DNA of 28,776 nucleotides from a virus (IMGVR_UViG_3300044799_000400:1-28776), one strand, 5' to 3'; counted from the stretch's first letter, positions 2,581 to 25,478 are shown. Program-made: numbers and translations. Notes: generated from the letters alone by a model not told the origin.

Positions 2581-2959
2581 CGTCAATCACGCCCGCCACT
2601 TCCCTGTAGTACCGCTCTCTCTCTTCTCGCCGCCTGTGGTACTGCCGTCTCTGATATTCGTTTTGCCTTGTCTTCTGATCTCTCGTATCGCCCTCTGTCG
2701 CAGGCCCCTCTTTCGTAGGCCCGACAATCCTGTCGGGCATCCCCTCCGTCTCCTGCTCCGCATACCTCACGCCACATTCACCATTCCCCCTCCGGTATAG
2801 CTTTGGCGTCCATGTCTTCCCTCCCACGACGACCCTCCCCCGCCTCACCAACGCTTCCCCCGTCAGCCATGATGCCGTCCTGCGTTGCCGGTTGAACTCC
2901 TCCGGATCCTTTCGGAAGTCGGCCTCCAGGATCTCCGCGATCCTCTCCTCATCTCCCAT
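2573..2959 (-). CDS. Unknown phage protein between tail chaperones and tape measure, carrying an in-frame REP
   Basis: About 128 residues if it starts at ATG 2959 (GGGATG nine bases upstream). ATG 2968 and TTG 2992 are in-frame alternatives, so the start is uncertain. The N-terminal half is acidic and alpha-helical (DEERIAEILEADFRKDPEEF) and continues into a compact segment with GRVVVGGKTWTPKLYRR. After that the protein reads through a REP copy as PDRIVGPT, then becomes an Arg/Tyr/Glu-rich helix (RRQYHRRREERERYYREV). I do not recognise the family. The position between the G/GT chaperones and the tape measure suggests a tail assembly role. The REP separates the folded-looking part from the charged tail, as if inserted into a linker. 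Its stop overlaps the tape measure start. Confidence 0.7.
   Translation of the reverse strand: MGDEERIAEILEADFRKDPEEFNRQRRTASWLTGEALVRRGRVVVGGKTWTPKLYRRGNGECGVRYAEQETEGMPDRIVGPTKEGPATEGDTRDQKTRQNEYQRRQYHRRREERERYYREVAGVIDDG
2715..2738 (+). repeat. REP element (family 1), inside a CDS
   Basis: A full 24-bp copy: GTAG, then stem GCCCGACA, loop ATCC, stem TGTCGGGC. It lies antisense to the host gene and is translated from the minus strand as PDRIVGPT. Confidence 0.9.
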
Positions 2960-2985
2960 GATTCTCATCCCTGCGTATTGTTCTT

Positions 2986-3013
2986 TGCTCAATGCTCAGC
3001 GCTCAAAACTCAG
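2986..3013. repeat. CTCA-cored short repeat run at a gene junction
   Basis: Four spaced CTCA units (GCTCAATGCTCAGCGCTCA, then AACTCA) sit between the tail chaperone stop and the next gene. Similar runs occur at 4834, 7471-7540 and 24941. Confidence 0.6.
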
Positions 3014-3040
3014 ATAGAGCGGGCGTCGCCCGCTCTATCT
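3012..3040. other. 13-bp perfect hairpin overlapping the GT stop codon
   Basis: The arms AGATAGAGCGGGC and GCCCGCTCTATCT pair perfectly around a 3-base loop. On the minus strand the hairpin contains the TAG that ends the frameshifted chaperone (3037-3035) and is followed by GAGTTTTG, so it could be a weak terminator or attenuator. It could also be another dispersed palindrome. The structure is plain; the role is inferred. Confidence 0.55.
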
Positions 3041-3678
3041 CTTCGCTCTCTGCGCTGCCAGTTTCTCCGCAATGATCGTCAGCAGCGCATCCTGGTAATC
3101 TGGCGGCAGCTCTTCGACCGTGGCGGGCGTCCAGCCGAAGTGCTCCATCAGCAAGAACTCCTCGATCAGGGCGCTTTCTGCAGGGCAGGTTGCTCTGAGG
3201 TTTCGGGTAGGGAAACCTCGGAAGAGCCGGTTGGCGAACCTGGCAAGTTTCCCAGTTCACCACCACCCTCTCCCCCGGTAGCACCTATCCCGGTAGGCCC
3301 TATCCCGGTAGGCCCGACAATCCTGTCGGGCAACGCCTTTTCCCCCTCCCCAATCCGTATCCCGTTGATATCCAGGACCTGCAACACGATCCAATCCTCC
3401 AGTTCCTCATCCAGATCGTTGTAGGTTTCCCAATTATGCAGAGTCCCCCCGAACCTCAGATCCCCCTCATCTCCGGGCAGAAGGAAATCGCAGATACCGT
3501 GTTCGAGTACTGTCTCCACTCGTCGCCGCAACCTCCCCTCCAGCATCGCCTCATTCCACTCATCCCGGCCCATCCGGTCGAACTGCTGCACCTCCACAAA
3601 GTAGGTCTCGCTCACCGCCCCCTCGGTCCCCTCCGGCAGATGTCTTTGTTCTCTCCGCCTCTTCTTGACAACTCTCAT
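3035..3678 (-). CDS. Tail assembly chaperone GT fusion, made by predicted -1 frameshift
   Basis: The predicted 214-residue product reads 144 codons of the G frame, slips -1 at GGGAAAC (3253-3247) and continues for 70 codons to the TAG at 3037-3035. The extension is not an ATG-initiated ORF and would be missed by standard gene calling. It reads as a good helical protein (ALIEEFLLMEHFGWTP, VEELPPDYQDALLTIIAEK, LAAQRAKR), like T domains of other phages, where EF-WTP-type helices bind the tube protein or tape measure. In long-tailed phages a G protein and a G-T fusion are produced in a set ratio and load the tape measure for tail tube assembly. Gene order here (tube, G/GT, unknown, tape measure) fits. 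The frame, heptamer phase and coding character are seen directly; use of the site is inferred. Confidence 0.75.
3166..3678 (-). CDS. Tail assembly chaperone G (unshifted product)
   Basis: A 170-residue product from ATG 3678 (GGGGG seven bases upstream) to TGA 3168-3166. A TTG start at 3729 is possible but lies inside a REP. The N-terminus is basic (MRVVKKRRREQRHLPEGT), followed by an alpha/beta domain with TYFVEVQQFDRMGRDEWNEA and DLDEELEDWIVLQVLD, typical of small acidic tail chaperones. After about residue 115 the protein runs through a REP and its tandem partial units (PDRIVGPTG, IGPTG, IGATG), then a Gly/Ser/Pro linker to the stop. The slippery heptamer lies 78 bases before the end of the sense frame. 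The role as G-type chaperone is inferred from gene order and the frameshift arrangement. Confidence 0.75.
   Translation of the reverse strand: MRVVKKRRREQRHLPEGTEGAVSETYFVEVQQFDRMGRDEWNEAMLEGRLRRRVETVLEHGICDFLLPGDEGDLRFGGTLHNWETYNDLDEELEDWIVLQVLDINGIRIGEGEKALPDRIVGPTGIGPTGIGATGGEGGGELGNLPGSPTGSSEVSLPETSEQPALQKAP
3247..3253 (-). promoter_or_regulatory. -1 ribosomal frameshift slippery site
   Basis: The minus strand reads CTG GGA AAC TTG in the G frame, so the heptamer G GGA AAC has exact X XXY YYZ phase. Lambda uses the near-identical GGGAAAG at the same gene position. Two bases downstream a GCC-A-GGTT / AACCGGC stem with a bulged A and a CGCC loop could act as a stimulator. Confidence 0.8.
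3278..3331 (+). repeat. REP (family 1) with tandem 5' partial units, inside chaperone G
   Basis: A full REP at 3308-3331 is preceded by two partial 15-bp units built on GGTAGG and CTATCCC. Translated on the minus strand this gives PDRIVGPTG, IGPTG, IGATG. The 15-bp step keeps the frame. Confidence 0.8.
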
Positions 3679-3716
3679 CTTGACAGCCCCCTGTCGTGAT
3701 ATATCCGACATCCCCG

Positions 3717-3740
3717 GTAGGCCCGACAATCCTGTCGGGC
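3717..3740 (+). repeat. REP element (family 1), intergenic
   Basis: A full 24-bp copy lies between the tail tube gene and chaperone G, followed by AATGCCTTTAT. Related bases (AATGCCGTTAT) follow other copies, so the conserved unit may extend past the hairpin. Confidence 0.9.
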
Positions 3741-3756
3741 AATGCCTTTATCTGAA

Positions 3757-4602
3757 CTATCCGCCGTATGCGAAGCTCACTGCCTCCGCCGTCTGCGTCC
3801 GGCAAGCCTTCAGTTCCAGCGGCTGCATCCCCTCTTCGATGTCCCCCTCCATGATGATGCAGGCCGGGAACGTCCAGGTGAAGTAGTTGTCGGCCCGCGT
3901 GAACCTCATCACCGCGGTGATCCACTGCCGCGCCATGGCCGCATCCCACAGGTCCGGGTGCTCATACTGATGGTCCAACTTGAGCGAGATCTTCCGGCCG
4001 TCGGTCGGGACCTCCCGCAGCAGCCCCGTCCCGTCCGACCCGTACTTGTCATCCTTGCACTGGTGGTCAATACCGAGTTCGACGGTCTCGAGGTGATACT
4101 CATTGCCCCCCCGCACCATCGCCAGCAGCTCCTCGAAGACGTAGGGCGCGGGGGGCGCATTGAAGTTCGGTATGGCCGGCGCCACCCGCGCCCGCGAGCG
4201 CCCGATGCAATCGAAGTCCACCATCAGGTCCTCGCCCTTGGCGCACTTCATGGTTGCGGTGTTGACGGTGACGCCGGCGGTGGCAAAGCCATCCACGTCT
4301 CCCAGCGCTTCCGTCACCGTGGCGCTATTCATGGTCCGGCGTGTCTTGCGGGTCAGCATGGCGATCAGGATGGCTTCCCGCCCGGGCGCGACCTCCAGGC
4401 TCAGGCCTCCCTTGACCTTGGTCGGCTCGGTGGTCACTCGCGCCTCATCCCACTCACCGATCGTGTTATCGAGTTCCCGGACCCCGGGTGATCGCTTCAG
4501 GGTCGACTTCCCCGGCACCCAGATGCTCGGCGCCACGGGCGACCCGAACGTCGGCTCGATCCCGATCCCTATGCTATGTTCCCATTCCCTCGGTTGTGGC
4601 AT
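3757..4602 (-). CDS. Probable major tail (tube) protein
   Basis: A 281-residue protein starting at ATG 4602, with GAGGA seven bases upstream directly after a REP variant. It is beta-rich: an N-terminal segment with HSIGIGIEPTFGSPVAPSIWVPGKSTLKRSPGV, then EPTKVKGGLSLEV, VNTATMKCAKGEDLMVDFDCIG, and a C-terminal half with KISLKLDHQYEHPDLWDAAMARQW and YFTWTFPACIIMEGDIEEGMQPLE. The layout (entry segment naming a fusion to the protein's own resin-like beta sheets, then a late VTFPA/MEGD-type stretch) resembles tail tube subunits of siphophages. It is followed by the chaperone pair and tape measure, the usual order for a tail tube gene. A longer in-frame ORF reaches 4713 but crosses the REP and lacks a better start. 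The family is inferred from position and fold-like pattern, not from a decisive motif. Confidence 0.65.
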   Translation of the reverse strand: MPQPREWEHSIGIGIEPTFGSPVAPSIWVPGKSTLKRSPGVRELDNTIGEWDEARVTTEPTKVKGGLSLEVAPGREAILIAMLTRKTRRTMNSATVTEALGDVDGFATAGVTVNTATMKCAKGEDLMVDFDCIGRSRARVAPAIPNFNAPPAPYVFEELLAMVRGGNEYHLETVELGIDHQCKDDKYGSDGTGLLREVPTDGRKISLKLDHQYEHPDLWDAAMARQWITAVMRFTRADNYFTWTFPACIIMEGDIEEGMQPLELKACRTQTAEAVSFAYGG

Positions 4603-4613
4603 CTTTGTCCTCG

Positions 4614-4650
4614 GTAGGCCCGACAATCCTGTGCGACCCGGTCGCCGGGC
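4614..4650 (+). repeat. REP variant with nested palindrome, intergenic
   Basis: A 37-bp form: GTAG, GCCCGACAATCCTGT, then GCGACCCGGTCGC (itself a palindrome), then CGGGC. The same form occurs at 5618. The unit is not a multiple of three and both copies lie outside genes. Confidence 0.75.
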
Positions 4651-4833
4651 ATTCCCCCTCCGATTCATTCCCTGGTTGGCCCTTCCTCTGCTTCCACTCT
4701 CGGAGGTCCCCACAAGTGGGGCCTTGCGATTGCTTCGAACTTGGTTGGGCCACTCCAGTCAACGGTGGGCGGGGGCTGTATTCCCACCCCTGAACCTCGG
4801 TTTGTCAATGTTGTTCCCCCCCTCCCAGCCCAA

Positions 4834-4860
4834 TGCTCACCGCTCAACTCTCAGCGCTTC
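4834..4860. repeat. CTCA-cored short repeat run
   Basis: TGCTCACCGCTCAACTCTCA followed by GCGCTT. It lies directly after the stop of the next minus-strand gene. The 259-base gap 4603-4861 also holds the REP variant at 4614 and a small CCCCAC-AA-GTGGGG hairpin (4708-4721), and no convincing gene. Confidence 0.6.
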
Positions 4861-4861
4861 C

Positions 4862-5596
4862 CTACAGCGCCATCGGCCGGTCCAGCTTGCTCCTGAACTT
4901 TACCTGCTCCCCGTTCTCTCCCCCGCTCACGATCGCCACCAGCGTGATGTCGATGTAGATGTCGCCGCCGTCGCCGATGTCCACCGTATCCCCGGCCTCC
5001 CCGTCAACGGTGATCTGCTTGACCTCGGTCGTCGTGTCCGGCTTCTTGCAGGTGACGTTGAGCAGCACATCCGTGGCCGCCTTCCCCTCCGGGATATAGG
5101 CCTCGAGGTTGTTCCCACCCGTGTAGGCGCTCAGTCCCAACCCATCCACCCAGGTCCCGCTCCCGGAGCCGGTCACGTTGTAGGCTCCCATCTCCACCAC
5201 GTCGTCATAGACATTGGCCACGGCCAGCCGCGCCCCGATGGTCCTGTTGTGCAGCTCCGATACCTGGATAGCCACTCGCCACTCCACGGCCGCCAGGTAG
5301 TCATCCAGGGTCGTGTAGACCTCCTTGGTCTCACCGCTCTCCGGCTGTCGCTGGAGATGCTGCAGGAAGCCGTTCAGCAGTTCGCTTTGCAGGTTGGAGT
5401 AGAAGGCTCCGGAGGCGATGGCCAGGTCCACATTATGGGCGGCCAACCCCAGGGGCAGTTCCACGCTCGGGTCCTCACTCGTGGTCACCCGATCGTAGAA
5501 GACGGTCCCACCGTCTATCGCCGCGGCGAGGTTCTTCTCGATATAGGCGACCCGGTCGAATATCCCCTGCGCAATTGCATCATCAATGATGGCCAT
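4862..5596 (-). CDS. Unknown phage structural protein (244 aa)
   Basis: It starts at ATG 5596 with GGAG nine bases upstream. The N-terminal half is mainly helical (DDAIAQGIFDRVAYIEKNLAAAI; ELLNGFLQHLQRQPESG; YTTLDDYLAAVEWRVAIQVSEL). The C-terminal half is beta-rich and acidic, ending with a repeat-free sandwich-like stretch (EVKQITVDGEAGDTVDIGDGGDIYIDITLVAIVSG, then EQVKFRSKLDRPMAL). It lies between the capsid cluster and the tail tube gene, where head completion, neck or tail terminator proteins are usually encoded. I do not recognise the family. There is no signal peptide or membrane segment. It is clearly coding on length, start signal and composition. Confidence 0.75.
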   Translation of the reverse strand: MAIIDDAIAQGIFDRVAYIEKNLAAAIDGGTVFYDRVTTSEDPSVELPLGLAAHNVDLAIASGAFYSNLQSELLNGFLQHLQRQPESGETKEVYTTLDDYLAAVEWRVAIQVSELHNRTIGARLAVANVYDDVVEMGAYNVTGSGSGTWVDGLGLSAYTGGNNLEAYIPEGKAATDVLLNVTCKKPDTTTEVKQITVDGEAGDTVDIGDGGDIYIDITLVAIVSGGENGEQVKFRSKLDRPMAL

Positions 5597-5617
5597 CCGT
5601 CTCTCTCCTCAATCCCG

Positions 5618-5693
5618 GTAGGCCCGACAATCCTGTGCGACCGGGTCGCCGGGCAATGCCTTCATCGGAGCCCGACAGGATTGTCGGGCCTAC
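5618..5693. repeat. REPIN-like inverted pair (37-bp variant plus standard REP)
   Basis: The nested-palindrome variant (5618-5654, GTAG on plus) faces a standard copy (5670-5693, GTAG on minus). The GTAGs are outermost, as in REPINs. The minus-strand GTAG supplies the TAG stop (5692-5690) of the next gene. Confidence 0.8.
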
Positions 5694-6022
5694 CCCTCTC
5701 TATCCAATGCCTTCTCCAACCTCTCCATCAGTGCACCCAACCGCCCATCCTGCGCCGTGGACAGATCCCTCATCTCCGCCAGGAACGTCTCCTGCGCATC
5801 TCTCCCGCCGCTGGTCAGCTTCACGACCGTCTCCATCAGCAGGCCCGCACTCTTGATCTGATTCTCCGCCGCATCCACCAGTTGCTGGATCTGGCCGTTC
5901 TTCTCGTCAATCTTGCCCTTCATCCATGCGAACATCCCGCGCGCCAGAAAAGCCAGGAGGGCGAACAACCCCGCCATGGTCCCTGCCACGATGCCGATCT
6001 CGCCCCCTGTCAGATGCTGCAT
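5690..6022 (-). CDS. Small membrane-anchored coiled-coil protein
   Basis: A 110-residue protein starting at ATG 6022 (GGGAG three bases further upstream). It has one clear membrane segment near the N-terminus (about 9-33, GIVAGTMAGLFALLAFLARGMFAWM), then a charged coiled-coil-like helix (KIDEKNGQIQQLVDAAENQIKSA) and a second amphipathic helix to the end. The architecture could fit a holin-like or spanin-like protein or an inner membrane factor, but its position between the capsid and tail genes does not settle this. The stop codon is part of a REP: GAG GGG TAG uses the GTAG of the minus-oriented copy, so the C-terminus may have been reset by the insertion. Function unknown. Confidence 0.65.
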   Translation of the reverse strand: MQHLTGGEIGIVAGTMAGLFALLAFLARGMFAWMKGKIDEKNGQIQQLVDAAENQIKSAGLLMETVVKLTSGGRDAQETFLAEMRDLSTAQDGRLGALMERLEKALDREG

Positions 6023-6035
6023 GATCTCCCTATCC

Positions 6036-6944
6036 TTACGCCGTCAAGCATGTCGTCAGCAGCGAGCCCGCCTCCGCGCAGACGACCTTCTCATCCTGCA
6101 CCAGGTTGACTTCGATGAAGTCGGAGTGCCGGGGTTCCTCGCGCCAGCGCCTCGTGTAGAACGGCTTCTGGCGGAAGGTGTAGCCCGCCGAAACCTGCTT
6201 CAGGCCGGGCCGCGCCGCCACATACCCGATCCACACGTCGTCTCCCCAGATGTCGCCGATGACCGGGTCCTGCCCCTCGATGGCGCTGTCGTACATCGCC
6301 TCCGCCACCAGGATGCGCGGGATCTCAAACAGCGTCTGCAGGTGCTCTATCGTCACCTGCACCCGCATCAGCGGGTTGATCCACTCGATGATCTCCGCGT
6401 TCCCCTTGAGCGCGTTGAAGACCGAGAAGGGCAGCACCATGGTGTTCGGGCGCAGGCCCGACGCCAGCCGGATCGTCTCCCGCGCCGCCAGCACATCCTC
6501 CACCGGCGTGCTCGCATCCTGATCCCACTTGGTGCCCGGCGAGTCGTTGTCCCACGTCCCGGTATCGGTCAGGAGCGTCATCACGCGGATCTCATAGTCC
6601 AGCAACATGAGATCGGTGAGTAGCTCGGTGGTGTCCACGTCCAAGTTGAGCGGCGCGTCGGCGTTGTCCCGCTCCTCGTCGTCAATGCCCTGAGCCAGGG
6701 CATAGGACCGGCAGGAGTAGCTGCCCGTGGTGACGGTCCAGTCCACCTCAGGGGCCCGCGTCATCCGGGCCCGCGCGGTCCGCACCGGCCGGAACCGTTC
6801 CGCCCCATACTTGTAGTACAGGTCGGACAGCTTCCGCACGGGCACGATCGGCCACACGTCCTCGGCCACATAGTCCGAGTTGCGGTAAGCGATGCTGACA
6901 TTGGTCAGCGGCACATTCACATGGACTTCATTGCGCTCCGGCAT
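6036..6944 (-). CDS. Major capsid protein
   Basis: A 302-residue protein starting at ATG 6944 with GGAGG six bases upstream. It opens with LTNVSIAYRNSDYVAEDVWPIVPVRKLSDLYYKYG, a pattern I associate with major capsid proteins of many phages. It continues with a central helical region (LLTDLMLLDYEIRVMTLLTD), TMVLPFSVFNALKGNAEIIEW, and a C-terminal beta part with GDDVWIGYVAARPGLKQVSAGYTFR. It lies directly after the decoration protein and the protease/scaffold gene, the usual capsid order (Mu I/Z then T). It contains no REP, unlike the protease gene beside it. The HK97 fold is inferred from family knowledge. Confidence 0.85.
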   Translation of the reverse strand: MPERNEVHVNVPLTNVSIAYRNSDYVAEDVWPIVPVRKLSDLYYKYGAERFRPVRTARARMTRAPEVDWTVTTGSYSCRSYALAQGIDDEERDNADAPLNLDVDTTELLTDLMLLDYEIRVMTLLTDTGTWDNDSPGTKWDQDASTPVEDVLAARETIRLASGLRPNTMVLPFSVFNALKGNAEIIEWINPLMRVQVTIEHLQTLFEIPRILVAEAMYDSAIEGQDPVIGDIWGDDVWIGYVAARPGLKQVSAGYTFRQKPFYTRRWREEPRHSDFIEVNLVQDEKVVCAEAGSLLTTCLTA

Positions 6945-6975
6945 CTCGATCCTCCGTCAGCCCCCGCTGACTGCC

Positions 6976-7038
6976 GTAGGCCCGACAATCCTGTCGGGCA
7001 TCCCCTTTCGCAGAGCCCGACACGATTGTCGGGCCTAC
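6976..7038. repeat. REPIN-like inverted pair of REPs, intergenic
   Basis: A plus-oriented copy (6976-6999) and a minus-oriented copy (7015-7038; loop variant CACGATTG) face each other with a 15-base spacer. The minus GTAG begins four bases after the decoration gene stop. Confidence 0.85.
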
Positions 7039-7041
7039 GAT

Positions 7042-7446
7042 CTAACTCCCCGACCCACTCCCATACAACTGCGGCCGAATGTACATCTCGATGATGTCAT
7101 CCGGGGCCGTCGCGGCTTCCAGCGCCACCCCGACCGACCAGGTGGGCTCTCCGCCGGCCCCTACGGACGTCGCCGTATCCACCGTGCCATCGGTGTCCGC
7201 CACCATCAGCTCGTCAAGCTTGCTGAAGGCCCCATTTGCCTTCACCTTGGAGGTCCCCAGCATCCGCACTTGGGCCTCCTGCCCCTCGGTCGGCTTGTTC
7301 TGCAGGATGCCGATCGGGACGTCCGTATCCTCGCAGATCTTGCAAGTATTGGCGTTCGTCCCCAGCGTCACCGCGCAGAATTGACTCGTCGAGAGGTCCT
7401 CCTCAGCGACGAGGGTCATGTCGAAGACTGCTTGACTGACAGCCAT
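7042..7446 (-). CDS. Capsid decoration protein (DUF2190-like)
   Basis: A 134-residue protein starting at ATG 7446 with GGAGG six bases upstream. The sequence is almost wholly beta-type with a small-barrel pattern: VAEEDLSTSQFCAVTLGTNANTCKIC, then PIGILQNKPTEGQEAQVRMLGTSKVKA, then SVGVALEAATAPDDIIEMYIRPQLYG. GILQNKP-G--A-VR--G resembles DUF2190-type head proteins, which stabilise capsids at symmetry axes and are usually encoded between scaffold/protease and major capsid protein, as here. The C-terminus ends in a Gly/Ser tail that stops four bases before a REP, so it may be partly REP-adjacent sequence. No membrane segment or REP lies inside the gene. Confidence 0.7.
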   Translation of the reverse strand: MAVSQAVFDMTLVAEEDLSTSQFCAVTLGTNANTCKICEDTDVPIGILQNKPTEGQEAQVRMLGTSKVKANGAFSKLDELMVADTDGTVDTATSVGAGGEPTWSVGVALEAATAPDDIIEMYIRPQLYGSGSGS

Positions 7447-7470
7447 GATCGTCCTCCCGAACTGAGATTG

Positions 7471-7540
7471 TTGAGCTTCGAGCATTGAGCTTTGAGTCCC
7501 GACTCTTTGATCCGTTACTCAACGCTCAACTCTCAACGCT
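7471..7540. repeat. Inverted arrangement of CTCA/TGAG short repeats
   Basis: A TTGAGC-type run (7471-7496) faces a CTCAACGCTCAACTCTCAACG run (7518-7540) in the gap between the protease and decoration genes. Together they could fold into an imperfect stem. They are the longest example of this second dispersed repeat. Confidence 0.6.
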
Positions 7541-7548
7541 TCTCCCTA

Positions 7549-8343
7549 CTACTCCCCCTCGATGCCTCTTTGTGCCAACCCCGGGTTCTCCGCGATGACG
7601 GCTCGCACCGCATCGCCGTATGTCATCCCCTGGATCTCGGTCATCTTCTTCCGCGCGGCCGTGTCCAGCTCGCCCTCCGGCGATTGCTGCCCCTCCTGCG
7701 CCACGAATCCGCGCGCCCCCATCGGCACCGGCACCAGGCCCTTGATCAGGTCCAGGAACCGCTGTCGTTCCGAGATCTGAGCCGTTGCTCCGGTAGGCCC
7801 GACACTCTTGTCGGGCACATCGGAGAACCGCATGGCGAAGTCGGCCAGCGCTTCCCTCTGGGCCGGCGCGATGATGCCCCTCTGATCCTCGCCAAACCGC
7901 CAGGCGCGGATGCTCTCCATCACTGCCGCCCGGGCCTCGCGGTATTCCCCCAGGGCCACTCGCTGCTCGAGCCCTTGGATCGTCGCTTGCTGGTGCTCAT
8001 ACATCCGCCGCGCCTCATCCCCTCCCGTAGGCCCGACAATCCTGTCGGGCTCCGGCGTCACCGGAGCACTCCCTGCTATGGGCTGCGCGACTCCCGTAGG
8101 CCCGACAATCCTGTCGGGCTTCGGCGTCACCGGAGCACTCCCTGCTATGGGCTGCGCGACTCCCGTAGGCCCGACAATCCTGTCGGGCTTCGGCGTCACC
8201 GGAGCACTCCTTGCTATGGGTTGCGCGGTTGGCGAAGGAGAAGAACCGGCCGGCGCCGGGCTGCCCGGTCCGGCGCCGGCGGTCTGCGCCGTCGCGGCCT
8301 GCGTCACCGAAACCTGATCGTTATTGGTCACGTCGTCAGCCAT
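7549..8343 (-). CDS. Nested scaffold protein (Mu Z-like internal start)
   Basis: An in-frame internal ATG at 8343-8341 (residue 232 of the protease precursor, MADDVTNND) has a very strong ribosome binding site, GGGAGGTA, ending five bases before it. The predicted 264-residue product contains the Pro/Ala linker, the three-copy tandem repeat and the helical C-terminal scaffold domain, and lacks the protease. This mirrors Mu, where scaffold Z is read from inside gene I, and lambda Nu3 inside C. The ribosome binding site is stronger than that of the full-length gene, fitting a scaffold made in excess. The site and frame are seen directly; the function follows from the families. Confidence 0.65.
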   Translation of the reverse strand: MADDVTNNDQVSVTQAATAQTAGAGPGSPAPAGSSPSPTAQPIARSAPVTPKPDRIVGPTGVAQPIAGSAPVTPKPDRIVGPTGVAQPIAGSAPVTPEPDRIVGPTGGDEARRMYEHQQATIQGLEQRVALGEYREARAAVMESIRAWRFGEDQRGIIAPAQREALADFAMRFSDVPDKSVGPTGATAQISERQRFLDLIKGLVPVPMGARGFVAQEGQQSPEGELDTAARKKMTEIQGMTYGDAVRAVIAENPGLAQRGIEGE

Positions 8344-9036
8344 CGTGTTACCTCCCATGCTATCCCCCCAGCCCGCAAAGACTCGGACCTCATTGACCGG
8401 CGCCGTCACGTGCTGCTCCCCCGTCTCCATCATCGTCACCGGCGCCAGGTCCTTGAAGAAGGGTCGGTTGGTCAGCGCCGCCGACGTCAGGACGTTCCTG
8501 AACTTCAAGCCATCCGCCGCCCGCGTGTACTCGGGATAGAACTCGGGGGAGATGTACCGGAACCTGTGTTGCGCCAGCAGCCTCTCGCCATAGTCGGTCC
8601 ACTCGATGCGCCCGTAGAGCCTCTGGTCATCGGCGCGTACCGACATGATCCATCCGGGCGCCCCCTCCGGGCTCGGCTGGTGCTCGATGTCCAGCGCCAC
8701 ATCCTGCCCGTAAACCCTCTGGTTGAAGTTGTCCTCAAACTGCCTCAGGTCGGCGGCGGTGACATTGAACTTGCCGTAGATCGGATGGTTCCATGCCCCC
8801 GCCGGCACCAGTTCGATCTCGCTCCTCGGGTCCCCCGGCAGCGCCACAAATGTTCTGATTATCGTAGGCCCGACAATCCCGGTAGGCCCGACAATCCTGT
8901 CGGGCGTCGGTTCACTCGCATTCTTCTGGGCCAGGTAGGCCTGATAGGCCGCGGTCGCGGTCTCCTGCGTGTCGTAGATGCAGGGCCCGCTCCCGATCCG
9001 CCACTTCTCGTTGTGTGGGCACTTGCTGACTGGCAT
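7549..9036 (-). CDS. Mu I-like head maturation protease / scaffold precursor
   Basis: A 495-residue protein starting at ATG 9036, with GGGAG about ten bases upstream and the first gene of the minus late arm. Residues about 60-200 match the Mu-type protease: RSEIELVPAGAWNHPIYGKF, D-x-E-H at 116-119, GWIMSVRADDQRLYGRIEWTD, and Y-x-S-P-E-F at 161-166. Residues 205-340 are an Ala/Pro/Gly linker, and the C-terminus is a helical scaffold (EHQQATIQGLEQRVALGEYREARAAV). In Mu this polypeptide yields the capsid protease and, from a nested start, the scaffold. Five REP translations lie in frame: one after residue 44 (with a partial copy), three in a 23-residue tandem repeat (about 283-338), and a variant at 409-417. 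All are in linkers and none breaks the protease core. A Cys-containing N-terminal 40 residues precedes the protease and is unexplained. Confidence 0.85.
   Translation of the reverse strand: MPVSKCPHNEKWRIGSGPCIYDTQETATAAYQAYLAQKNASEPTPDRIVGPTGIVGPTIIRTFVALPGDPRSEIELVPAGAWNHPIYGKFNVTAADLRQFEDNFNQRVYGQDVALDIEHQPSPEGAPGWIMSVRADDQRLYGRIEWTDYGERLLAQHRFRYISPEFYPEYTRAADGLKFRNVLTSAALTNRPFFKDLAPVTMMETGEQHVTAPVNEVRVFAGWGDSMGGNTMADDVTNNDQVSVTQAATAQTAGAGPGSPAPAGSSPSPTAQPIARSAPVTPKPDRIVGPTGVAQPIAGSAPVTPKPDRIVGPTGVAQPIAGSAPVTPEPDRIVGPTGGDEARRMYEHQQATIQGLEQRVALGEYREARAAVMESIRAWRFGEDQRGIIAPAQREALADFAMRFSDVPDKSVGPTGATAQISERQRFLDLIKGLVPVPMGARGFVAQEGQQSPEGELDTAARKKMTEIQGMTYGDAVRAVIAENPGLAQRGIEGE
7793..7816 (+). 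repeat. Diverged REP inside the protease/scaffold gene
   Basis: GTAG, then GCCCGACA, CTCT, TGTCGGGC. The stem is intact but the loop has changed. It is translated as DKSVGPTG. Confidence 0.8.
8027..8233 (+). repeat. Three-copy 69-bp tandem repeat, each with a REP
   Basis: Units start at 8027, 8096 and 8165. Each has a full REP followed by 45 bases of linker sequence (CGGCGTCACCGGAGCACTCC and GCTATGGG motifs). At 23 codons per unit the gene stays open and gives repeats of PDRIVGPTG, VAQPIAGS and APVTPK. The units differ at only a few bases, so the duplication is recent. Confidence 0.95.
8350..8356 (-). promoter_or_regulatory. Internal ribosome binding site for the nested scaffold
   Basis: The minus strand reads GGGAGGTAACACG-ATG inside the protease gene, a near-perfect anti-SD match at ideal spacing. 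Confidence 0.75.
8864..8905 (+). repeat. Partial plus full REP in tandem, inside the protease gene
   Basis: A 16-base 5' part (8864-8879) and a full copy (8882-8905) lie 18 bases apart. The same arrangement occurs at 16390-16431. The minus-strand translation is PDRIVGPTG then IVGPT. Confidence 0.85.
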
Positions 9037-9085
9037 CGGCGGCGCTCCCTACTCTCGCTGACTTTTCCTCGCACCTGTGTTCGAT

Positions 9086-11321: not shown

Positions 11322-11485
11322 CCCGCCCTCCGTCTGCCGTCTCGCACCTATCCTTGAGCAGAGCGCACCAGCCTAATGGCCTCCACAGCCGATCTCAACT
11401 TGACCAAGTTTTCCCCCGGAAGGCCCCGCCGTCGCCTCAGGGCCAGCCGGTCACACCCCAAATCGAGGCGGCCGTCTGGTGCGCT

Positions 11486-11523
11486 GGGAGGGGCGGTTGT
11501 GGAGGCCGCCCCTCCCTTTCTAC
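11486..11523 (-). repeat. GTAG-led hairpin, family 4, in front of the transposase gene
   Basis: An 11-bp perfect stem (GGGAGGGGCGG / CCGCCCCTCCC) around a 9-base loop, followed on plus by TTTCTAC, which is GTAG at the 5' side on minus. It lies 17 bases before the transposase start, in the otherwise empty 11322-11539 gap, and could also affect its translation. Confidence 0.65.
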
Positions 11524-11539
11524 ATCGAGGCGATCACCA

Positions 11540-15539: not shown

Positions 15540-15597
15540 GTAGGCCCGACAATCCTGTCGGGCGATTCCGAGTGCCCGACAGGATTGTCGGGCCTAC
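15540..15597. repeat. REPIN: perfect inverted pair of 24-bp REPs
   Basis: A plus copy (15540-15563) and a minus copy (15574-15597) are exact inverse complements with a 10-base spacer. GTAGs are outermost. The pair sits between the GemA-like stop (two bases away) and the Gam start. Confidence 0.95.
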
Positions 15598-19598: not shown

Positions 19599-19869
19599 CC
19601 CCACATCGGGCGACCGCATCGGGTCACCCCTACCTTCCTCCATAGGGGCAGGCCTATCTGCCTGCCCGAACGCCTTCGACTATAGCCGCGCTGTCCTGAT
19701 CGCCGAGGGCCAGATGCTGACCGACCGCATAGATGTCCTCGCCGCGAATGGCAATCACACTATGGCGGATCGTTCCCGCCGCAACCTATCCTCGATCAAT
19801 GATGCCCTGGCCGCCCTGCAGCTCCCGGCCGTCCGGCTCGCCGCCCTCACTGGCAATCTGAAACATTGA
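19579..19869 (+). CDS. Small phage protein containing a translated family 3 hairpin
   Basis: A 96-residue protein starting at TTG 19579 (GGAGG eight bases upstream) or GTG 19570. It overlaps the terminase stop. After a polar N-terminus the frame passes through a palindrome read as GAGLSACPNAF. The rest is a helical unit (YSRAVLIAEGQMLTDRIDVLAANGNHTMADRSRRNLSSINDALAALQLP). The helical part resembles small head-tail proteins encoded between terminase and portal, but no family is recognised. Confidence 0.6.
   Translation: MFHPTSDPTSGDRIGSPLPSSIGAGLSACPNAFDYSRAVLIAEGQMLTDRIDVLAANGNHTMADRSRRNLSSINDALAALQLPAVRLAALTGNLKH
19642..19667 (+). repeat. ATAG-led hairpin, family 3, inside a CDS
   Basis: ATAGG before a perfect 8-bp stem GGGCAGGC/GCCTGCCC with loop CTATCT. 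It has the same plan as the REPs and a different sequence. Confidence 0.65.
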
Positions 19870-19884
19870 CAGAGGTGCAATCTC

Positions 19885-19947
19885 ATGTCCTGGACAGCGA
19901 GGATAACCATTGACGATCATCGCCCGGCAGTGGGCGGCCTGGTTTGA
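19885..19947 (+). pseudogene. Truncated duplicate of the next small gene
   Basis: ATG 19885 opens MSWTARITIDD and stops after 20 codons. The next gene (20073) opens MPWTARITLDG, and the bases before both ATGs match (AGGTGCA). It is therefore a 5' fragment of a duplicated gene. The following bases 19948-20058 contain another open stretch (GVLGGPDILQGLGSPLLITQ and QGYGG, ending in TAA) in a different frame, so a second degraded small gene is likely. Confidence 0.55.
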
Positions 19948-20072
19948 GGACATTGAGGGAGGAGGGGCGGAGCCGCGGAGTGCTGGGCGGGCCGGACATC
20001 CTGCAGGGCCTGGGGAGCCCGCTACTGATCACGCAGGGATACGGAGGATAACGAAAACGGAGGTGCAGTGAT

Positions 20073-20324
20073 ATGCCCTGGACAGCACGCATAACGCTCG
20101 ACGGTGACAAGCCCGACGTGGGCACCGCGACGGCCACCTGGAACGCGGGCGAGCCCGACGAGTTCAGCTACTCGTGCCGGGTGAAGGTCTCGATGACTGA
20201 GGGCAAGGCCTTCGCCAGGGAGGCCAATGCCGCGCACACAAAGGCCGCAGCCAAGACCGCCCGCGAGGGGTCTCTGGCGAAGATATTGACTGACTTGCTC
20301 ACTGCAGAGGAGGCGGCATCCTAA
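20073..20324 (+). CDS. Small unknown phage protein (83 aa)
   Basis: It starts at ATG 20073 with GGAGGTG eight bases upstream. The first half is a beta hairpin type (MPWTARITLDGDKP; TATATWNAGEPDEFSYSCRVKVS), the second a Lys/Ala-rich helix (EGKAFAREANAAHTKAAAKTAREGSLAKILTDLL). Stop and next start share one base (TAATG). Probably a structural or assembly factor of the fibre cluster. A truncated copy lies just upstream. Confidence 0.65.
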   Translation: MPWTARITLDGDKPDVGTATATWNAGEPDEFSYSCRVKVSMTEGKAFAREANAAHTKAAAKTAREGSLAKILTDLLTAEEAAS

Positions 20325-20689
20325 TGGCAATCACTAAGTCCGCAGCAGTCATCTGGAACGGCATCACGCTGACGGCAAGCGCGGGTGACACCACCAGCGC
20401 AGGACAGAACCTGGCCGCTGCCTACGGTGCCGTGCTCGACCTCAAACTCACCAATGGGGCAACCGGCCCAACCGTGGCGGCGCAGATACAGATTCAGGTG
20501 AGCGAAGACAACAGCAACTACTACAACTACGGTGGCGCGCTGAAGGGCTCTACAGTCAACAGCGCCGTCTCGCAATGGGGCGGCATCGAGGTCCCGCTGG
20601 GCACGAACTACGTGCGGCTCGTCGGCGGCAGCAACACCGGCCAGAACGTGACGGCGCGAGCCGAGATCAGCATGGTGACGAAGGTATAG
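20324..20689 (+). CDS. Small beta-rich structural protein (121 aa)
   Basis: ATG 20324 overlaps the preceding TAA by one base. The product is wholly beta-type and Gly/Thr/Asn-rich: SAAVIWNGITLTASAGDTTSAGQNL, AVLDLKLTNGATGPTVAAQIQIQVSEDNSNYYNYG, EVPLGTNYVRLVGGSNTGQNVTARAEISM. The pattern fits a jelly-roll or Ig-like surface module. It lies directly before the LamG-like gene, so it may decorate the virion or form part of the fibre tip. No family is recognised. Confidence 0.65.
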   Translation: MAITKSAAVIWNGITLTASAGDTTSAGQNLAAAYGAVLDLKLTNGATGPTVAAQIQIQVSEDNSNYYNYGGALKGSTVNSAVSQWGGIEVPLGTNYVRLVGGSNTGQNVTARAEISMVTKV

Positions 20690-20690
20690 C

Positions 20691-21494
20691 ATGAGCGGCA
20701 TCGTCAAGCCACAATTCGGCTGCCAGGTGGACTGGAGCCATCCGCTGGCCCAGGGCCTCCCCGGCGGCTGGCTGATGAATGAGGGCAGCGGCGGGAGTGT
20801 CTACGACCTGAGCGGCCAGGGCACCCACGGGATCATGACCAACATGGACCCGGCGACGGATTGGGTGACAGGGCCGGACGGGTGGGCAGTGGACTTTGAC
20901 GGTAGCAATGACCATGTTGAGTTTCCGCAGAACATCCTGCCGAGCGCATGGACAACCGCAGTCATCTGGCTCAAGTTCACAAATACGATACAGACCGGCA
21001 TCATCTTGGGGCACGCCGGAGAGGCGGCTTATTACGACTCCTATGGGAAGAGTCTCCGCTATGACAATGGCATTCTGTCCGCTCAGGCGGAATTCAATAA
21101 TAGCAACCCGCTCACCAGTTACACGTGGGGGGACACGACTACATGGCACCAGGTAGTCGGAGTTTTTGAAACGGCGGGTGTCCTATATCTGGATGGAGTG
21201 TCTGTCTCAACTGGCAATCTCAGTATAGGCACAGCCCTTGATCCATACGCATCTACCTATAGGTTCCGCCTGGGCAGCAACTACGATATCTCGAGGTGTT
21301 TCGCCGGACAGATAGCACATGCCCACATCTACAACCGTGCCCTCTCCGCCGAGGAGGTCGCCTCCCTCTCCGCCCAACCGTACCAGTTCCTCACCCGCCC
21401 GAGGCGCTACTGGTGGCTGGCGCAGCCAGTCAGCGGCAATCGCAGGTTCAATCCCGGCCTCTGGACGCCGGGCACTAACCCAGGAGTGATGTGA
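20691..21494 (+). CDS. LamG/concanavalin-like virion protein
   Basis: A 267-residue protein starting at ATG 20691, two bases after the preceding stop. The first 25 residues look like a virion attachment peptide. Residues about 28-225 have the LamG-type signature: WLMNEGSGGSVYDLSGQGTHGIM, VDFDGSNDHVEFP, WLKFTNTIQTGIILGHAG, a ligand-like LDGVSVSTGNLSIG, RFRLGSNYD and GQIAHAHIYNRALSAEEVASL. Such domains bind carbohydrate or protein surfaces and are common in phage receptor-binding proteins. It is followed by the large propeller protein, so both are probably part of the host-recognition apparatus. Base usage from about 20950 is lighter in G+C than in neighbouring genes, which suggests recent exchange. 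Confidence 0.75.
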   Translation: MSGIVKPQFGCQVDWSHPLAQGLPGGWLMNEGSGGSVYDLSGQGTHGIMTNMDPATDWVTGPDGWAVDFDGSNDHVEFPQNILPSAWTTAVIWLKFTNTIQTGIILGHAGEAAYYDSYGKSLRYDNGILSAQAEFNNSNPLTSYTWGDTTTWHQVVGVFETAGVLYLDGVSVSTGNLSIGTALDPYASTYRFRLGSNYDISRCFAGQIAHAHIYNRALSAEEVASLSAQPYQFLTRPRRYWWLAQPVSGNRRFNPGLWTPGTNPGVM

Positions 21495-21495
21495 C

Positions 21496-23628
21496 ATGGC
21501 ACCAGTCTACGCCGGAGAAGTCCTGGGCGTTCGCAAGCCAGCCGCCGGGGAGACGACTGAGTTGATGGTGTACATGCAGGACAGCGCGGGGGTTCCCCTC
21601 ACCGGGCAGACCTTCGACGCGGCAGGCATGGAGATCTACATCAGCAAGCCCGGAGCGGCGGATGTGATCTGGGCGACCATCGTCGGCGCGGGCTTTGTGA
21701 TCGGCAACTGGTCGGAACGCGGTCACGGCAAGTATGTCATCATCCTGTCTGGCGACGTGGCGGGCGAGGCCAACCTCTGCGACACCCCCGGCGACCTTGC
21801 GGTGTACGTGAAGAACACGGCCAGCAAGGGTGACAACTTCCTGTTTCGGGTGGTGCCGGCGGACGTGGCGCGGGATGACCAGTGGACGGACGGGCGGGCG
21901 GTCCTGATCTCCACCATCCCTACTGATGTGGCGGCGGCCATCCTTGGCACGCCCGCCAACAAGCTCGTCACGGACACCAGCGGACGGGTTGACTTCGTGG
22001 ACAATCCTAATGAGAAGGCGATCTCGGCTATTCAGCGGACTACTCGCCTTGTTAGCCTGTCGGTGACGTCTCAATACTGGAATTGCATGGCGATTGCGCC
22101 CGGTGACCACATGTATGCTGGCGTGGGTGGCGGCGGCACTGGAGACGTGTACTACCAAGAGGTGGCCGGGATTGGACCATTGCTGCCGTTGGGAGAACCG
22201 GCCCGGAACTGCTTCGGGATGGCAACCCCGCCTGACGGTAGCGCCTATGTTTGTGTGTATAACGATCGCATCTACAAGAGGCCCGCTACTGGCGGTCCCT
22301 TTCAGGACCTCAATCAGACAGTGCGGCCGTGGAGAAAAATGGCCGCTCATCCGGGCGGAAATGTCTATGCCTGTACGGGTCCCTGGTCGGCAGCCGGTCG
22401 CGTCTATGTGCAGACCGCTGGCGCTGGTGACTTCGTTGATGTCGGTTCGGATCTCCCGTGCGATGGCGTTTGGTACGGAATGGCGTGCCCGCCCGATGGC
22501 AGCGTTTATGTCTGTGAATATGGTCACAATAGTGGTGACATCTGGAAGCGGCCTCCCGCTGGCGGCGCCTTCGTTCGCCTCAACCAGACGCCGAGGGACT
22601 GGTCTGCCATGGCGGCTCACCCAAATGGTGATGTTTACGCCGTGGCTGTCGGATGGATTTACAAGCAGACTGGTGGCGTCGGCGATTTCCTCATTCAGAC
22701 ACCACTGGGGGGAGGCTGGACATCAGTGGCGGTCGGGCCGGATGGAAACCTCTATGGTTGCGTCCAGAATGGCAGCATCTACCTCTTGGCTACGCTCACC
22801 AGCATCGGCGAGCGGATCATAACCTATCTGGACGCGGCGGTGACGGGCCGGGAGGCCAGTGGGGCGGCGGCGGTGGCGGTGGGGATGCTCAACAACCTGT
22901 CCGCCCAGAACACCCGCGACGCGATGAAGCTCGCACCAGCCGCCGGCAACCCGGAGCCAGGCAGCGTGGACGCACACCTGGACGATGCGGCCTTAGAGAC
23001 GACCCTCACTGCAATCATCGGTAGCGGTCTCCGCACGGTCACGGTGAGCATCCAGAATGAAGACGGCGATTTTCTGGAGGGTGTCGTCGTCAGCATCACC
23101 AACCAGGCCGAGACCTCGGACATCGCCGGCCCGCGGACGACCGACGAAAACGGCCAGGTGCAGTTCCACTTGAATGACGGCGCCGATTATCGTGCCATCC
23201 CGCGCAGCACCGTCATCTTCTCCGGTGGCGCCACGAACTTCGCGGTCTCCGGGGCCACTCCGGTCACCTGCATCATGGAGCAGGTTGCCATCCCGACGCC
23301 CTCCGACCCCAGCAAGTGCGCCGTTCACGGGTACCTCTATCACCCCATCGGCGGTCAGCCCCTGGCCTCCGTCGAGAATGCTGTCATCATCCGCCCGGCC
23401 ACGGTTCCTCTCCTCGGCGATGGCCAGGGCTTCACCGAAGAGGAGGGAGCCGCCGATACTGACGATGACGGCTACTTCTGCCTGAGCGTGGTGCGCTCGA
23501 CCATCGCCCGCGATCGCGGCCTCAGCGATGGCATCTACCGCCTTTCCATTCCAAGCATCCGTCTCGATCGCCGCGTGATCATCCCGGATCTGGATGCCTG
23601 CCTCTTCACCGATCTGCAATCCGGGTAG
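21496..23628 (+). CDS. Fibre-like protein with six-unit beta-propeller and Ig-like C-terminus
   Basis: A 710-residue protein starting at ATG 21496 (AGGAG ten bases upstream). Residues about 1-130 form a beta N-domain (TTELMVYMQDSAGVPLTGQTFDAAGMEIYISKPG) typical of phage baseplate or fibre proteins. Residues about 195-435 contain six units of about 40 residues built on xMAxxPDGxVYxC, xxIYKRPxxGGxF and a W in the last strand, most likely a beta-propeller. Next comes a linker (about 440-510, MLNNLSAQNTRDAMKLAPAAG), then an Ig/transthyretin-like domain (about 515-595, VTVSIQNEDGDFLEGVVVSITNQAE) and a final domain. The stop TAG is the GTAG of a REP. Likely receptor recognition; which domain binds is unknown. 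Confidence 0.75.
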   Translation: MAPVYAGEVLGVRKPAAGETTELMVYMQDSAGVPLTGQTFDAAGMEIYISKPGAADVIWATIVGAGFVIGNWSERGHGKYVIILSGDVAGEANLCDTPGDLAVYVKNTASKGDNFLFRVVPADVARDDQWTDGRAVLISTIPTDVAAAILGTPANKLVTDTSGRVDFVDNPNEKAISAIQRTTRLVSLSVTSQYWNCMAIAPGDHMYAGVGGGGTGDVYYQEVAGIGPLLPLGEPARNCFGMATPPDGSAYVCVYNDRIYKRPATGGPFQDLNQTVRPWRKMAAHPGGNVYACTGPWSAAGRVYVQTAGAGDFVDVGSDLPCDGVWYGMACPPDGSVYVCEYGHNSGDIWKRPPAGGAFVRLNQTPRDWSAMAAHPNGDVYAVAVGWIYKQTGGVGDFLIQTPLGGGWTSVAVGPDGNLYGCVQNGSIYLLATLTSIGERIITYLDAAVTGREASGAAAVAVGMLNNLSAQNTRDAMKLAPAAGNPEPGSVDAHLDDAALETTLTAIIGSGLRTVTVSIQNEDGDFLEGVVVSITNQAETSDIAGPRTTDENGQVQFHLNDGADYRAIPRSTVIFSGGATNFAVSGATPVTCIMEQVAIPTPSDPSKCAVHGYLYHPIGGQPLASVENAVIIRPATVPLLGDGQGFTEEEGAADTDDDGYFCLSVVRSTIARDRGLSDGIYRLSIPSIRLDRRVIIPDLDACLFTDLQSG

Positions 23629-23648
23629 GCCCGACAATCCTGTCGGGC
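23625..23648 (+). repeat. REP (family 1) supplying the fibre gene stop
   Basis: A full copy whose TAG (23626-23628) ends the fibre-like gene. It is followed by AATGCCGTTAT, as at other intergenic copies. Confidence 0.95.
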
Positions 23649-23686
23649 AATGCCGTTATGGCGTCGGCCAATCAGGTCTCATCATC

Positions 23687-24610
23687 ATGAGCATCTCCTC
23701 TACAATCGGCGACATCCTCCAGGGCACCACCGGCGCCCTCGGCCCGCGTATGCTGCAGCTCGGAAAGGACACGGCCGTCAACGCGGTGGACTTCCCCCTT
23801 GCGCAGATCATCGAGACGCTCCATGGCAATTTCTGTGCCCTCTGCGCCCATGTCCATGGGATGATCCTCCGCAAGGGCACTCCGGAGTACTCCCGCTGGC
23901 GACTCCCCTCTCACATCAACTGCCGGCGCATCATGGTGGACATCCACCGCGATGAGGTGGGGCCTGACGGCCGGCCCACCGAACCCGACTTCAGCGAGCC
24001 CTCCGATGAGCTCATTAGGCAGCACGGCCACTTCGTCCTGCGGCCAAAGGATTATGAGGCGCTCCGGCTCCCTTCCCGCCCCACCGGCCGCGACTTCATC
24101 TTCTCCCATGGCGCCCGGGGAGAAGCCGGCACCTTGGTTTTCGCCCCGGCCCTCCCCGACTTCGCCTTGCGCGAGACGGTTTCCCATCTCAGCACCGCCG
24201 CCATCTCTCTGATCGGCGCCATCCCGGACGGCCAGATCACTCCGACCCTGCGGCAGTGCGCCTATCAGTGCGCGCGCCGGCGCGAACGGTTCTTCGACAA
24301 CCTCGATAGGGACTTCCAGCGCCACGGCGCCGACTGGGGCGGCGACCTCACTCCGCAGGGCTACGCTGCCATCCCGGAGCGCATTCTTTCCGGTGAGCCC
24401 TGGGTCGCCACCAGGCCCCTCTACTCGCATCGCCTGCGCAAGCAGATGCGCTGTGTGGTATTCTACGATGAGGCCGAGGATGCGTCATTCTTCTGGGACA
24501 CGGCTACAGGCAACATCATCCATCCGGCCCGCACAGACATGGCCAAACTCTGGCGTGTCGCCGCCCCCAACGAGGAATTCATGCCGCTAAGAGGAGCCTG
24601 GGATCTCTGA
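23687..24610 (+). CDS. MuF-like head morphogenesis protein (C-terminal part only)
   Basis: A 307-residue protein starting at ATG 23687; no strong ribosome binding site is seen, and upstream codons cross the REP. The MuF/SPP1 gp7 signature is close to the N-terminus: GNFCALCAHVHGMIL with C-x2-C and LPSHINCRRIMVDI (about 47-85). Full MuF proteins have about 150-200 helical residues before this motif, which are missing here. A helical segment of that kind is present at the C-terminus of the portal protein (see finding). The remainder has a compact alpha/beta pattern (HGARGEAGTLVFAPALPDF; YSHRLRKQMRCVVFYDEAEDASFFWDTATGNIIHP), perhaps a C-terminal domain of the kind attached to MuF. TGA overlaps the next ATG. 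Confidence 0.7.
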   Translation: MSISSTIGDILQGTTGALGPRMLQLGKDTAVNAVDFPLAQIIETLHGNFCALCAHVHGMILRKGTPEYSRWRLPSHINCRRIMVDIHRDEVGPDGRPTEPDFSEPSDELIRQHGHFVLRPKDYEALRLPSRPTGRDFIFSHGARGEAGTLVFAPALPDFALRETVSHLSTAAISLIGAIPDGQITPTLRQCAYQCARRRERFFDNLDRDFQRHGADWGGDLTPQGYAAIPERILSGEPWVATRPLYSHRLRKQMRCVVFYDEAEDASFFWDTATGNIIHPARTDMAKLWRVAAPNEEFMPLRGAWDL

Positions 24611-24915
24611 TGCCTTCCGACACATTCATTGATGCCCTTTCTGACTGGACGCTCTCGGCCCTCCGCATAGAGAGTCTGGAGACCATTGATCTCTGGGAAC
24701 TCTTCGATGGCCGCGACCTCCTCCGCCGCGAGATCATGTCCGGGCGCGATCTGTCCGAAGACAATGCCGCCTTCCTCTCGAGTGCGGACGAAGTGTACGC
24801 GTGTCATGCCGACACGATCATCCCGGCCCTGCAGGCCCACGATTGGCTCGCCGACCTTCCCGCCGATCACTATGCCCATGCCTTCGTCGCCCAGCATTCG
24901 CCAACCGCCGCCTGA
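24610..24915 (+). CDS. Small acidic unknown protein (101 aa)
   Basis: ATG 24610 overlaps the MuF-like TGA (TGATG); AGGAG lies 12 bases upstream. Acidic and helical throughout (FIDALSDWTLSALRIESLETIDLWELFDGRDLLRREIM; AHDWLADLPADHYAHAFVAQH). No motif recognised. The coupling suggests it acts with the MuF-like protein, for instance as a chaperone or immunity-type partner of its C-terminal domain; this is inferred. Confidence 0.6.
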   Translation: MPSDTFIDALSDWTLSALRIESLETIDLWELFDGRDLLRREIMSGRDLSEDNAAFLSSADEVYACHADTIIPALQAHDWLADLPADHYAHAFVAQHSPTAA

Positions 24916-24940
24916 CCTGCCGTTGCCTTCCCGTCCGTCT

Positions 24941-24972
24941 CTCAAAACTCAGCGCTCAGCGCTCAACGCTCA
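24941..24972. repeat. CTCA-cored short repeat run at a gene junction
   Basis: Five CTCA units (ACTCAGCGCTCAGCGCTCA and neighbours) fill most of the 75-base gap before the gp36-like gene. Confidence 0.65.
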
Positions 24973-24990
24973 CAACTATCCAGGTGTCCC

Positions 24991-25419
24991 ATGGCCTACT
25001 GTGAAGCCAATGAAGTTCTCGAAGAGATCGGCTCTAACCTTGCCTTCGGCACCGGCACCGTACCCTCCGAAGAGCGCATCCGCGACATGATCACGGAGCA
25101 TGACGAGTTCATAGACGGCATGGCCCGCGATCGGGAGACTGTGCCGTTCGAGCCGGTGCCGAGGATCATCAGGAGCATCTCCAAGGACCTGACCGTCGCC
25201 CGTCTCTTGCCGATCATCTACCGGGGTGAGGGTTCCGAGCAGCACCTCGCGCGCGCCAAGGAGTTGCGCCGCTTCGCCGAGGATCGTCTGGAGAAGATCC
25301 AGGCCAACAAGCTCTCCCTGACCGCGACGGATACCGCGGCCGAGAGCATCGGCGGCCGGGCCATGATCTCTCCCGATGTCCCAGACAATCCGATCTTCTC
25401 CGTTCAGGATTTCTTCTGA
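24991..25419 (+). CDS. Mu gp36-like protein (DUF1320)
   Basis: A 142-residue protein starting at ATG 24991 with AGGTG six bases upstream. It is helical with the gp36 layout: YCEANEVLEEIG near the N-terminus, ERIRDMITEHDEFIDGMARDR in the middle, then PRIIRSISKDLTVARLLPIIYRGEG and HLARAKELRRFAEDRLEKIQANKLSL. DUF1320 proteins are head completion/connector proteins of Mu-like and related phages (gp6/HK97-like helical fold). It lies next to gpG- and gp37-like genes, as in Mu. REP partials start right after its stop. Confidence 0.8.
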   Translation: MAYCEANEVLEEIGSNLAFGTGTVPSEERIRDMITEHDEFIDGMARDRETVPFEPVPRIIRSISKDLTVARLLPIIYRGEGSEQHLARAKELRRFAEDRLEKIQANKLSLTATDTAAESIGGRAMISPDVPDNPIFSVQDFF

Positions 25420-25429
25420 TCCGACAATC

Positions 25430-25478
25430 GTAGGCCCGACAATCCTGTCGGGCGATGCCGTTGACAATCCTGTCGGGC
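25430..25478 (+). repeat. Full plus partial REP in tandem, intergenic
   Basis: A full copy (25430-25453) followed eight bases later by a 3'-part copy (25461-25478, TTGACAATCCTGTCGGGC). A short CCGACAATC remnant precedes the first. Confidence 0.85.

Follow-up and report, generated by a model that had tools for sequence, protein, structure and literature searches.

Dispersed GTAG-type REP palindromes in the genes and intergenic gaps of a Mu-like phage

A 28,776-base IMG/VR virus sequence (28.8 kb), analysed here at its full length and called the window, carries a short hairpin repeat at about 16 loci, some of them inside genes that read through the repeat in frame. The reading that we favor, at a probability of about 0.78, is that these are GTAG-type REPs with REPIN pairs: non-autonomous elements moved as single-stranded DNA by a Y1/HUH transposase of the RAYT kind encoded by the host, placed in the phage, and subsequently filtered.

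The phage and its repeat unit

Genes for a MuA-type transposase, a MuB-like ATPase, Gam, terminase, portal, major capsid, and scaffold proteins were identified in the window, along with those for a Mu-like head protease, a tape measure protein, and repressors. The presence of MuA, MuB, Gam, and Mu-type protease genes makes this a Mu-like phage. Gene models were made by hand from open frames, homology, and likely starts, and they include the following.

3757-4713, minus strand: minor tail gene
7549-9036, minus strand: Mu-like head maturation protease (gene I type), carrying five REP copies
10725-11321, plus strand: double-HTH early regulator of 198 residues
11354-13105, plus strand: MuA-type transposase, which marks the phage as Mu-like
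14941-15537, plus strand: GemA-like gene

The ORFs at 2573-2992 and 3166-3729, both on the minus strand, had no PHROG or Pfam match, and the names that the first-pass annotation gave to these two genes were not confirmed. The minus strand carries the head protease, scaffold, capsid, and tail genes (190-9036) and the plus strand those from terminase to portal (17183-28496), an arrangement unlike that of Mu. In three relatives (L025, L026, and L197), the capsid gene has a homologue of the ORF at 25455 or 24991 nearby on its own strand. The ORF at 20691-21494 has a Laminin_G_3/concanavalin-like lectin domain and is possibly a tail or surface-binding protein. GC skew is negative over most of the window, with no reference to compare it against.

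The repeat unit is 24 bp long and reads GTAG-GCCCGACA-ATCC-TGTCGGGC, with the GTAG abutting an 8-bp stem and a 4-nt loop (an 8/4/8 hairpin). The first-pass annotation of this DNA had counted more than 20 copies, and the recount agrees: 14 exact 24-mers and 7 copies with one to three mismatches, 21 in total, were found in the window, where a backward (reversed-pattern) control gave 0 matches. With the 20-bp core and up to three mismatches, there were 24 matches in the window, one site being matched on both strands, against 0.02 expected from dinucleotide shuffles. The loci are as follows.

2715-2738, plus: exact REP; antisense PDRIVGPT in ORF 2573-2992 (minus)
3308-3331, plus: exact REP with a 15-bp partial step before it; PDRIVGPT near the C-terminus of ORF 3166-3729 (minus)
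3717-3740, plus: exact REP in the intergenic gap that follows the minor tail gene 3757-4713 (minus), just beyond its stop codon
4614-4650, plus: REP variant with the GCGACCSGGTCGC hairpin in the right arm; upstream of the minor tail gene's likely start
5618-5693: REPIN; variant REP (plus) with an exact REP (minus) at 5670-5693
6976-7038: REPIN between the major capsid and scaffold genes; exact copy (plus) at 6976-6999, one-mismatch copy (minus) at 7015-7038
7793-7816, plus: REP with a CTCT loop; protease gene, C-terminal part, read as PDKSVGPT
8027-8188, plus: array of three exact REPs at a 69-bp tandem step; protease gene, on the C-terminal side of the Pfam domain, with PDRIVGPT read three times
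8864-8905, plus: 18-bp half unit and exact REP, PDRIVGPTGIVGPT; protease gene (8864/8882), between the N-terminal module and the protease domain
11256-11279, minus: one-mismatch REP; early regulator, residue 178 of 198, read as AGQDCRAY, C-terminal to both HTH domains
13102-13125, plus: one-mismatch REP; its TAG terminates the MuA frame (11354-13105, plus)
15212-15271, plus: three tandem 18-bp steps, the last an exact REP, TPDNPGRPDNPGRPDNPVG; RPDNPVG inside the GemA-like gene 14941-15537 (plus)
15540-15597: REPIN of two exact REPs, 15540-15563 (plus) and 15574-15597 (minus), between the GemA-like gene and gam
16390-16431, plus: 18-bp half unit and one-mismatch REP; probably in the leader that precedes the ATG near 16447
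23625-23648, plus: exact REP; its TAG terminates ORF 21496-23628 (plus)
25430-25482, plus: exact REP followed by part of a second unit (25463-25482), in the intergenic gap downstream of ORF 24991-25419 (plus)

The three inverted pairs, or REPINs (5618/5670, 6976/7015, and 15540/15574), fold as long hairpins and span 58 to 76 bp. Tandem steps of 18 bp occur at 8864, 15212-15271, and 16390, a step of 15 bp occurs near 3293, and the triple at 8027/8096/8165 has a step of 69 bp; the annotation's observation that all of these are multiples of three was thus reproduced. The unit is open in five of six frames, and the peptides that had been read from it (PDRIVGPT, RPDNPVG, and AGQDCRAY) were confirmed in translated copies. 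The extra palindrome in the right arm of the two variants (4614-4650 and 5618-5654) is 13 bp long. A second dispersed repeat, of CTCAACG/CTCAACT-type heptamers, lies at 2988-3012, 4829-4860, 7518-7542, and 24948-24972, mostly in intergenic gaps.

The REP family in Planctomycetota and in other phage records

REPs are defined by a GTAG or GTGG located 0-2 nt 5′ of a hairpin with a stem of 7-20 and a loop of 2-5 (PMC6006769), a description that covers the window unit. Outside the window, the exact 24-bp unit was found on one contig among 84,980 species genomes, in the Planctomycetota MAG G002, and on one other viral contig; neither the phage's own host nor that host's RAYT turned up in these collections. 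G002 contains about 30 copies of the hairpin in 4.7 Mb, mostly with GTGG heads, and the hairpin is dispersed in five genomes (G002, G008, G009, G032, and G279) at 7 to about 30 copies each. GTAG-headed versions with CTCY and TTCY loops are present in G032 and G279, which belong to the same phylum; G032 also has REPIN pairs and shares its CTCT loop with the window copy at 7793 (the class of G032 consists of this one genome, and class-level comparison there is uninformative).

In G002, G008, and G009, two inverted GTGG-headed copies flank a Y1/HUH transposase gene (RAYT). The RAYT proteins of G002 and G009 have the HVH, WQ, and YIRMNP motifs, and the G002 ORF bearing them (locus L037), which shows both the HUH motif and the YI..NP tyrosine motif of a RAYT, scored above the cut-off for PF01797. 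Since the unit combines a GTAG head, an 8/4/8 hairpin, inverted pairs, dispersal outside the phage, and a cognate RAYT flanked by the hairpin, its identification as a genuine GTAG-type REP is supported. Two proposals of the first-pass annotation are thereby upheld: the unit is a REP of the RAYT kind, given the published definition and the hairpin-flanked RAYT of three genomes, and it is a dispersed REP rather than a local phage repeat, given the copies in Planctomycetota chromosomes. The RAYT is not encoded by the phage itself; a search with PF01797 (Y1) gave no match in the window or in a second phage record, G001.

Y1 transposase genes number 24 in G002, 14 in G008, and 28 in G009 (L037 1378-1895, L148, and L149), and several of them lie between GT[AG]G hairpins that are distinct from one another; these genomes therefore harbor many REP/RAYT systems side by side. 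Most of the G002 copies examined are intergenic, about 25 bp past stop codons, and often within longer elements; at L048 5379-5496, a repeated element of about 100 bp, often found at that distance from a stop codon, has the GTGG hairpin at one of its ends. The orientation of the REPs in G002 is clustered along contigs (permutation P = 0.003). A link to replication in this genome was dropped, because the GC skew is too flat for replichores and most copies are oriented like the gene upstream of them. One further locus (L202) was discarded as a probable low-complexity match.

The REP family is also present in two other phage records. G001 (27.75 kb), which has tape measure, capsid, head morphogenesis, and terminase matches, contains one inverted pair and a single copy. 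L195 is a fragment of a Mu-like phage with MuA and repressor matches and weak matches to MuB and GemA; at 6036-6105, a compound REP with two different arms lies in frame in MuA, after the Mu-transpos_C domain, and reads GGPDIPVGPDRPLSGRGAGMPRLP. The window's own REPIN had no convincing match in phage or plasmid collections. As a yardstick, an E. coli REP, queried as the published consensus, matched only 56 of 50,697 phage records. Among the best of these matches are one record whose annotation is a transduced bio locus and several others that are either very short or as long as a chromosome; some of the 56 are therefore host DNA. To our knowledge, phages are normally without REPs.

Insertion site, reading frame, and strand

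The only exact GTAG copy in G002 sits in a 2-oxo acid dehydrogenase E1-alpha gene, where it reads KYYTGRPDNPVGQSPVVF. Twelve REP-free E1-alpha orthologues read KYYKSDAVVY or similar and are shorter by exactly 24 bp, and solved structures have a gap in the alignment at the same site. These alignments show the copy to be a clean 8-residue in-frame insertion in a loop, and the gene gives a base-by-base view of what one REP insertion adds. G009 has a 45-bp tandem version at this gene and G008 a decayed copy. Translated copies occur elsewhere in the phylum: in G032, an ATPase has a translated REPIN in the linker that joins its N-terminal part to its AAA domain, and two copies in G279 are translated as RPDRNVGPTG.

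The annotation had expected clean 8-residue insertions relative to REP-free homologues, and this was borne out in the bacterial E1-alpha gene rather than in the genes of the window. Phage relatives sought with the capsid, terminase, protease, and MuB proteins yielded only 40% capsid relatives or nothing useful, and the larger Planctomycetota prophage regions were without a homologue of the protease, 2573, or 3166 genes. No close REP-free homologue of the window genes was found, so insertion there is inferred. The annotation's placement of copies inside genes stands for the ORFs at 2573 and 3166, the protease (five copies), the early regulator, and the GemA-like gene. It probably does not stand for the copies at 16390/16408, which the annotation had listed only with a perhaps: that ORF shows its main homology from residue 72 on, past these copies and beside the ATG near 16447, which makes a 5′ leader their probable location.

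Of the 16 REP loci, 7 are genic, and the other 9 lie between genes or coincide with a stop codon. Coding sequence makes up 87% of the window, and genic loci are thus fewer than expected (binomial P = 5e-5 on the hand-made gene models); the extragenic share of 9/16 compares with 13% non-coding sequence. All seven genic loci are in frame. The antisense ones (n = 5) give PDRxVGPT or PDKSVGPT, the early regulator AGQDCRAY, and the GemA-like gene RPDNPVG. In three genes, the REP supplies the TAG stop: MuA (13102), ORF 21496-23628 (23625), and, on the minus strand, ORF 5690-6022 (5670). In the protease, whose Pfam domain spans residues 88-213, the REPs are located outside that domain, near residues 44, 283-336, and 407, and the in-frame copy of the early regulator likewise falls outside the matched Pfam domains. 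Excising the repeats hardly changed the PHROG match of the GemA-like protein (E from 0.020 to 0.015).

Among the in-frame copies that could be compared, seven of eight antisense copies read PDRxVGPT and all five sense copies read (R/G)PDxPVG; this frame bias, a small and post hoc count, is consistent with a filter at the protein level. The GTAG strand is on the plus strand in 12 of 13 unpaired loci, with the left arm of the window transcribed on the minus and the right arm on the plus strand (P = 0.003). That one REP orientation dominates even though the two arms are transcribed in opposite directions suggests that insertion is linked to one replicating strand. Relatives in the IS200/IS605 family insert as single strands into the lagging-strand template (PMC6006769), and the orientation bias would be consistent with single-strand insertion here.

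Proposed origin, rival explanations, and known systems

Under the favored explanation, a small non-autonomous REP would be mobilised as single-stranded DNA by the RAYT of a bacterial host, which may have put REPs into the Mu-like phage during the prophage state or during replication. Copies that disrupted genes would then have been lost through selection. The survivors would be those beside stop codons, in intergenic gaps, or in frame in poorly conserved linkers, where a 24-bp unit, being a multiple of three, would add short peptides rich in Pro, Asp, and Gly. The density of about 21 units in the 28.8-kb window is far above that of G002 (about 30 in 4.7 Mb), which implies either that the host is REP-rich or that something keeps REPs in the phage.

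That the copies are very dense and nearly identical, with several directly past stop codons, could also be expected of an immobile, phage-specific repeat serving as terminators, mRNA stabilisers, or packaging or replication signals. We regard this as highly improbable and, as a full account, already contradicted: the same hairpin is dispersed in chromosomes, flanks a RAYT, and forms a clean insertion in a bacterial enzyme gene, and in the window its orientation is independent of transcription and seven loci are genic. Alternatively, the record could be a decayed resident prophage, no longer functional as a phage, that gathered REPs like other chromosomal DNA. REPs do build up in chromosomes, IMG/VR includes prophages, and neither a host flank nor a phage end was identified in the window, which makes decay a possibility to be weighed, although an unlikely one. 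Against it, there are open frames for capsid, portal, terminase, protease, MuA, and MuB, all with matches to their families, every genic copy keeps the frame, implying selection on the genes, and two other phage records hold the REP family.

The annotation had described the REP family as adapted to, or filtered for, in-frame insertion. Filtering fits the data; the intergenic excess in the window and the position of most examined G002 copies after stop codons do not favor adaptation. If the 24-bp length and the open frames had been selected for life inside genes, one would expect main steps that are all multiples of three and a prevalence of the PDRxVGPT (7/8) and (R/G)PDxPVG (5/5) frames, as observed. 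Survivorship alone yields the same pattern, however, the frame count is small and post hoc, and most G002 copies are intergenic, often in longer elements, so we consider selection for coding compatibility improbable.

REPs are regarded as inherited mainly from parent to daughter cell together with their RAYT. With three phage records carrying the REP family, carriage of REPs between hosts by phage is plausible. The fuller proposition that transposable phages are reservoirs and carriers of REPs and REPINs, which enter by way of a host RAYT, survive as translated linkers, are delivered to new hosts, and have been selected for a unit length harmless to coding, is speculative and on balance doubtful. 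This Mu-like phage, with several translated REPs among its more than 20 copies, offers a natural test case for RAYT-driven spread into a mobile genome, for strand preference, and for tolerance of REP-encoded peptides.

The closest known systems are REPINs/BIMEs with their TnpA-REP/RAYT (REPtrons), which the family resembles in the GTAG head, the short hairpin, the inverted pairs, the dispersal, and, in the related genomes, a Y1/HUH transposase flanked by inverted copies. The window differs from them in its high REP density in a phage, the E. coli REP matching only the 56 phage records noted above. A 2013 survey described GTAG REPs inside ORFs, REP-encoded residues, and REP-supplied TAG stops in hosts including Planctomycetes and Verrucomicrobia (PMC3733652). 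The intragenic GTAG REPs of Opitutus terrae and others in that survey likewise add amino acids and often give a TAG stop, but its main text does not mention phage, whereas the targets here are phage protease, regulator, GemA-like, and MuA genes. Translated REPs and TAG-supplying REPs are thus already known in bacteria, and what is new is a densely colonised phage; we found no report of REPs in phage genes in the open-access literature searched. The classic palindromes inserted in frame in protein genes are the Rickettsia palindromic elements (PMC10969869). Those are palindromes of about 150 bp with a conserved coding frame, located in bacterial genes, and the window unit falls outside that class, with its 24-bp unit and its pairs of 58-76 bp located in phage genes.
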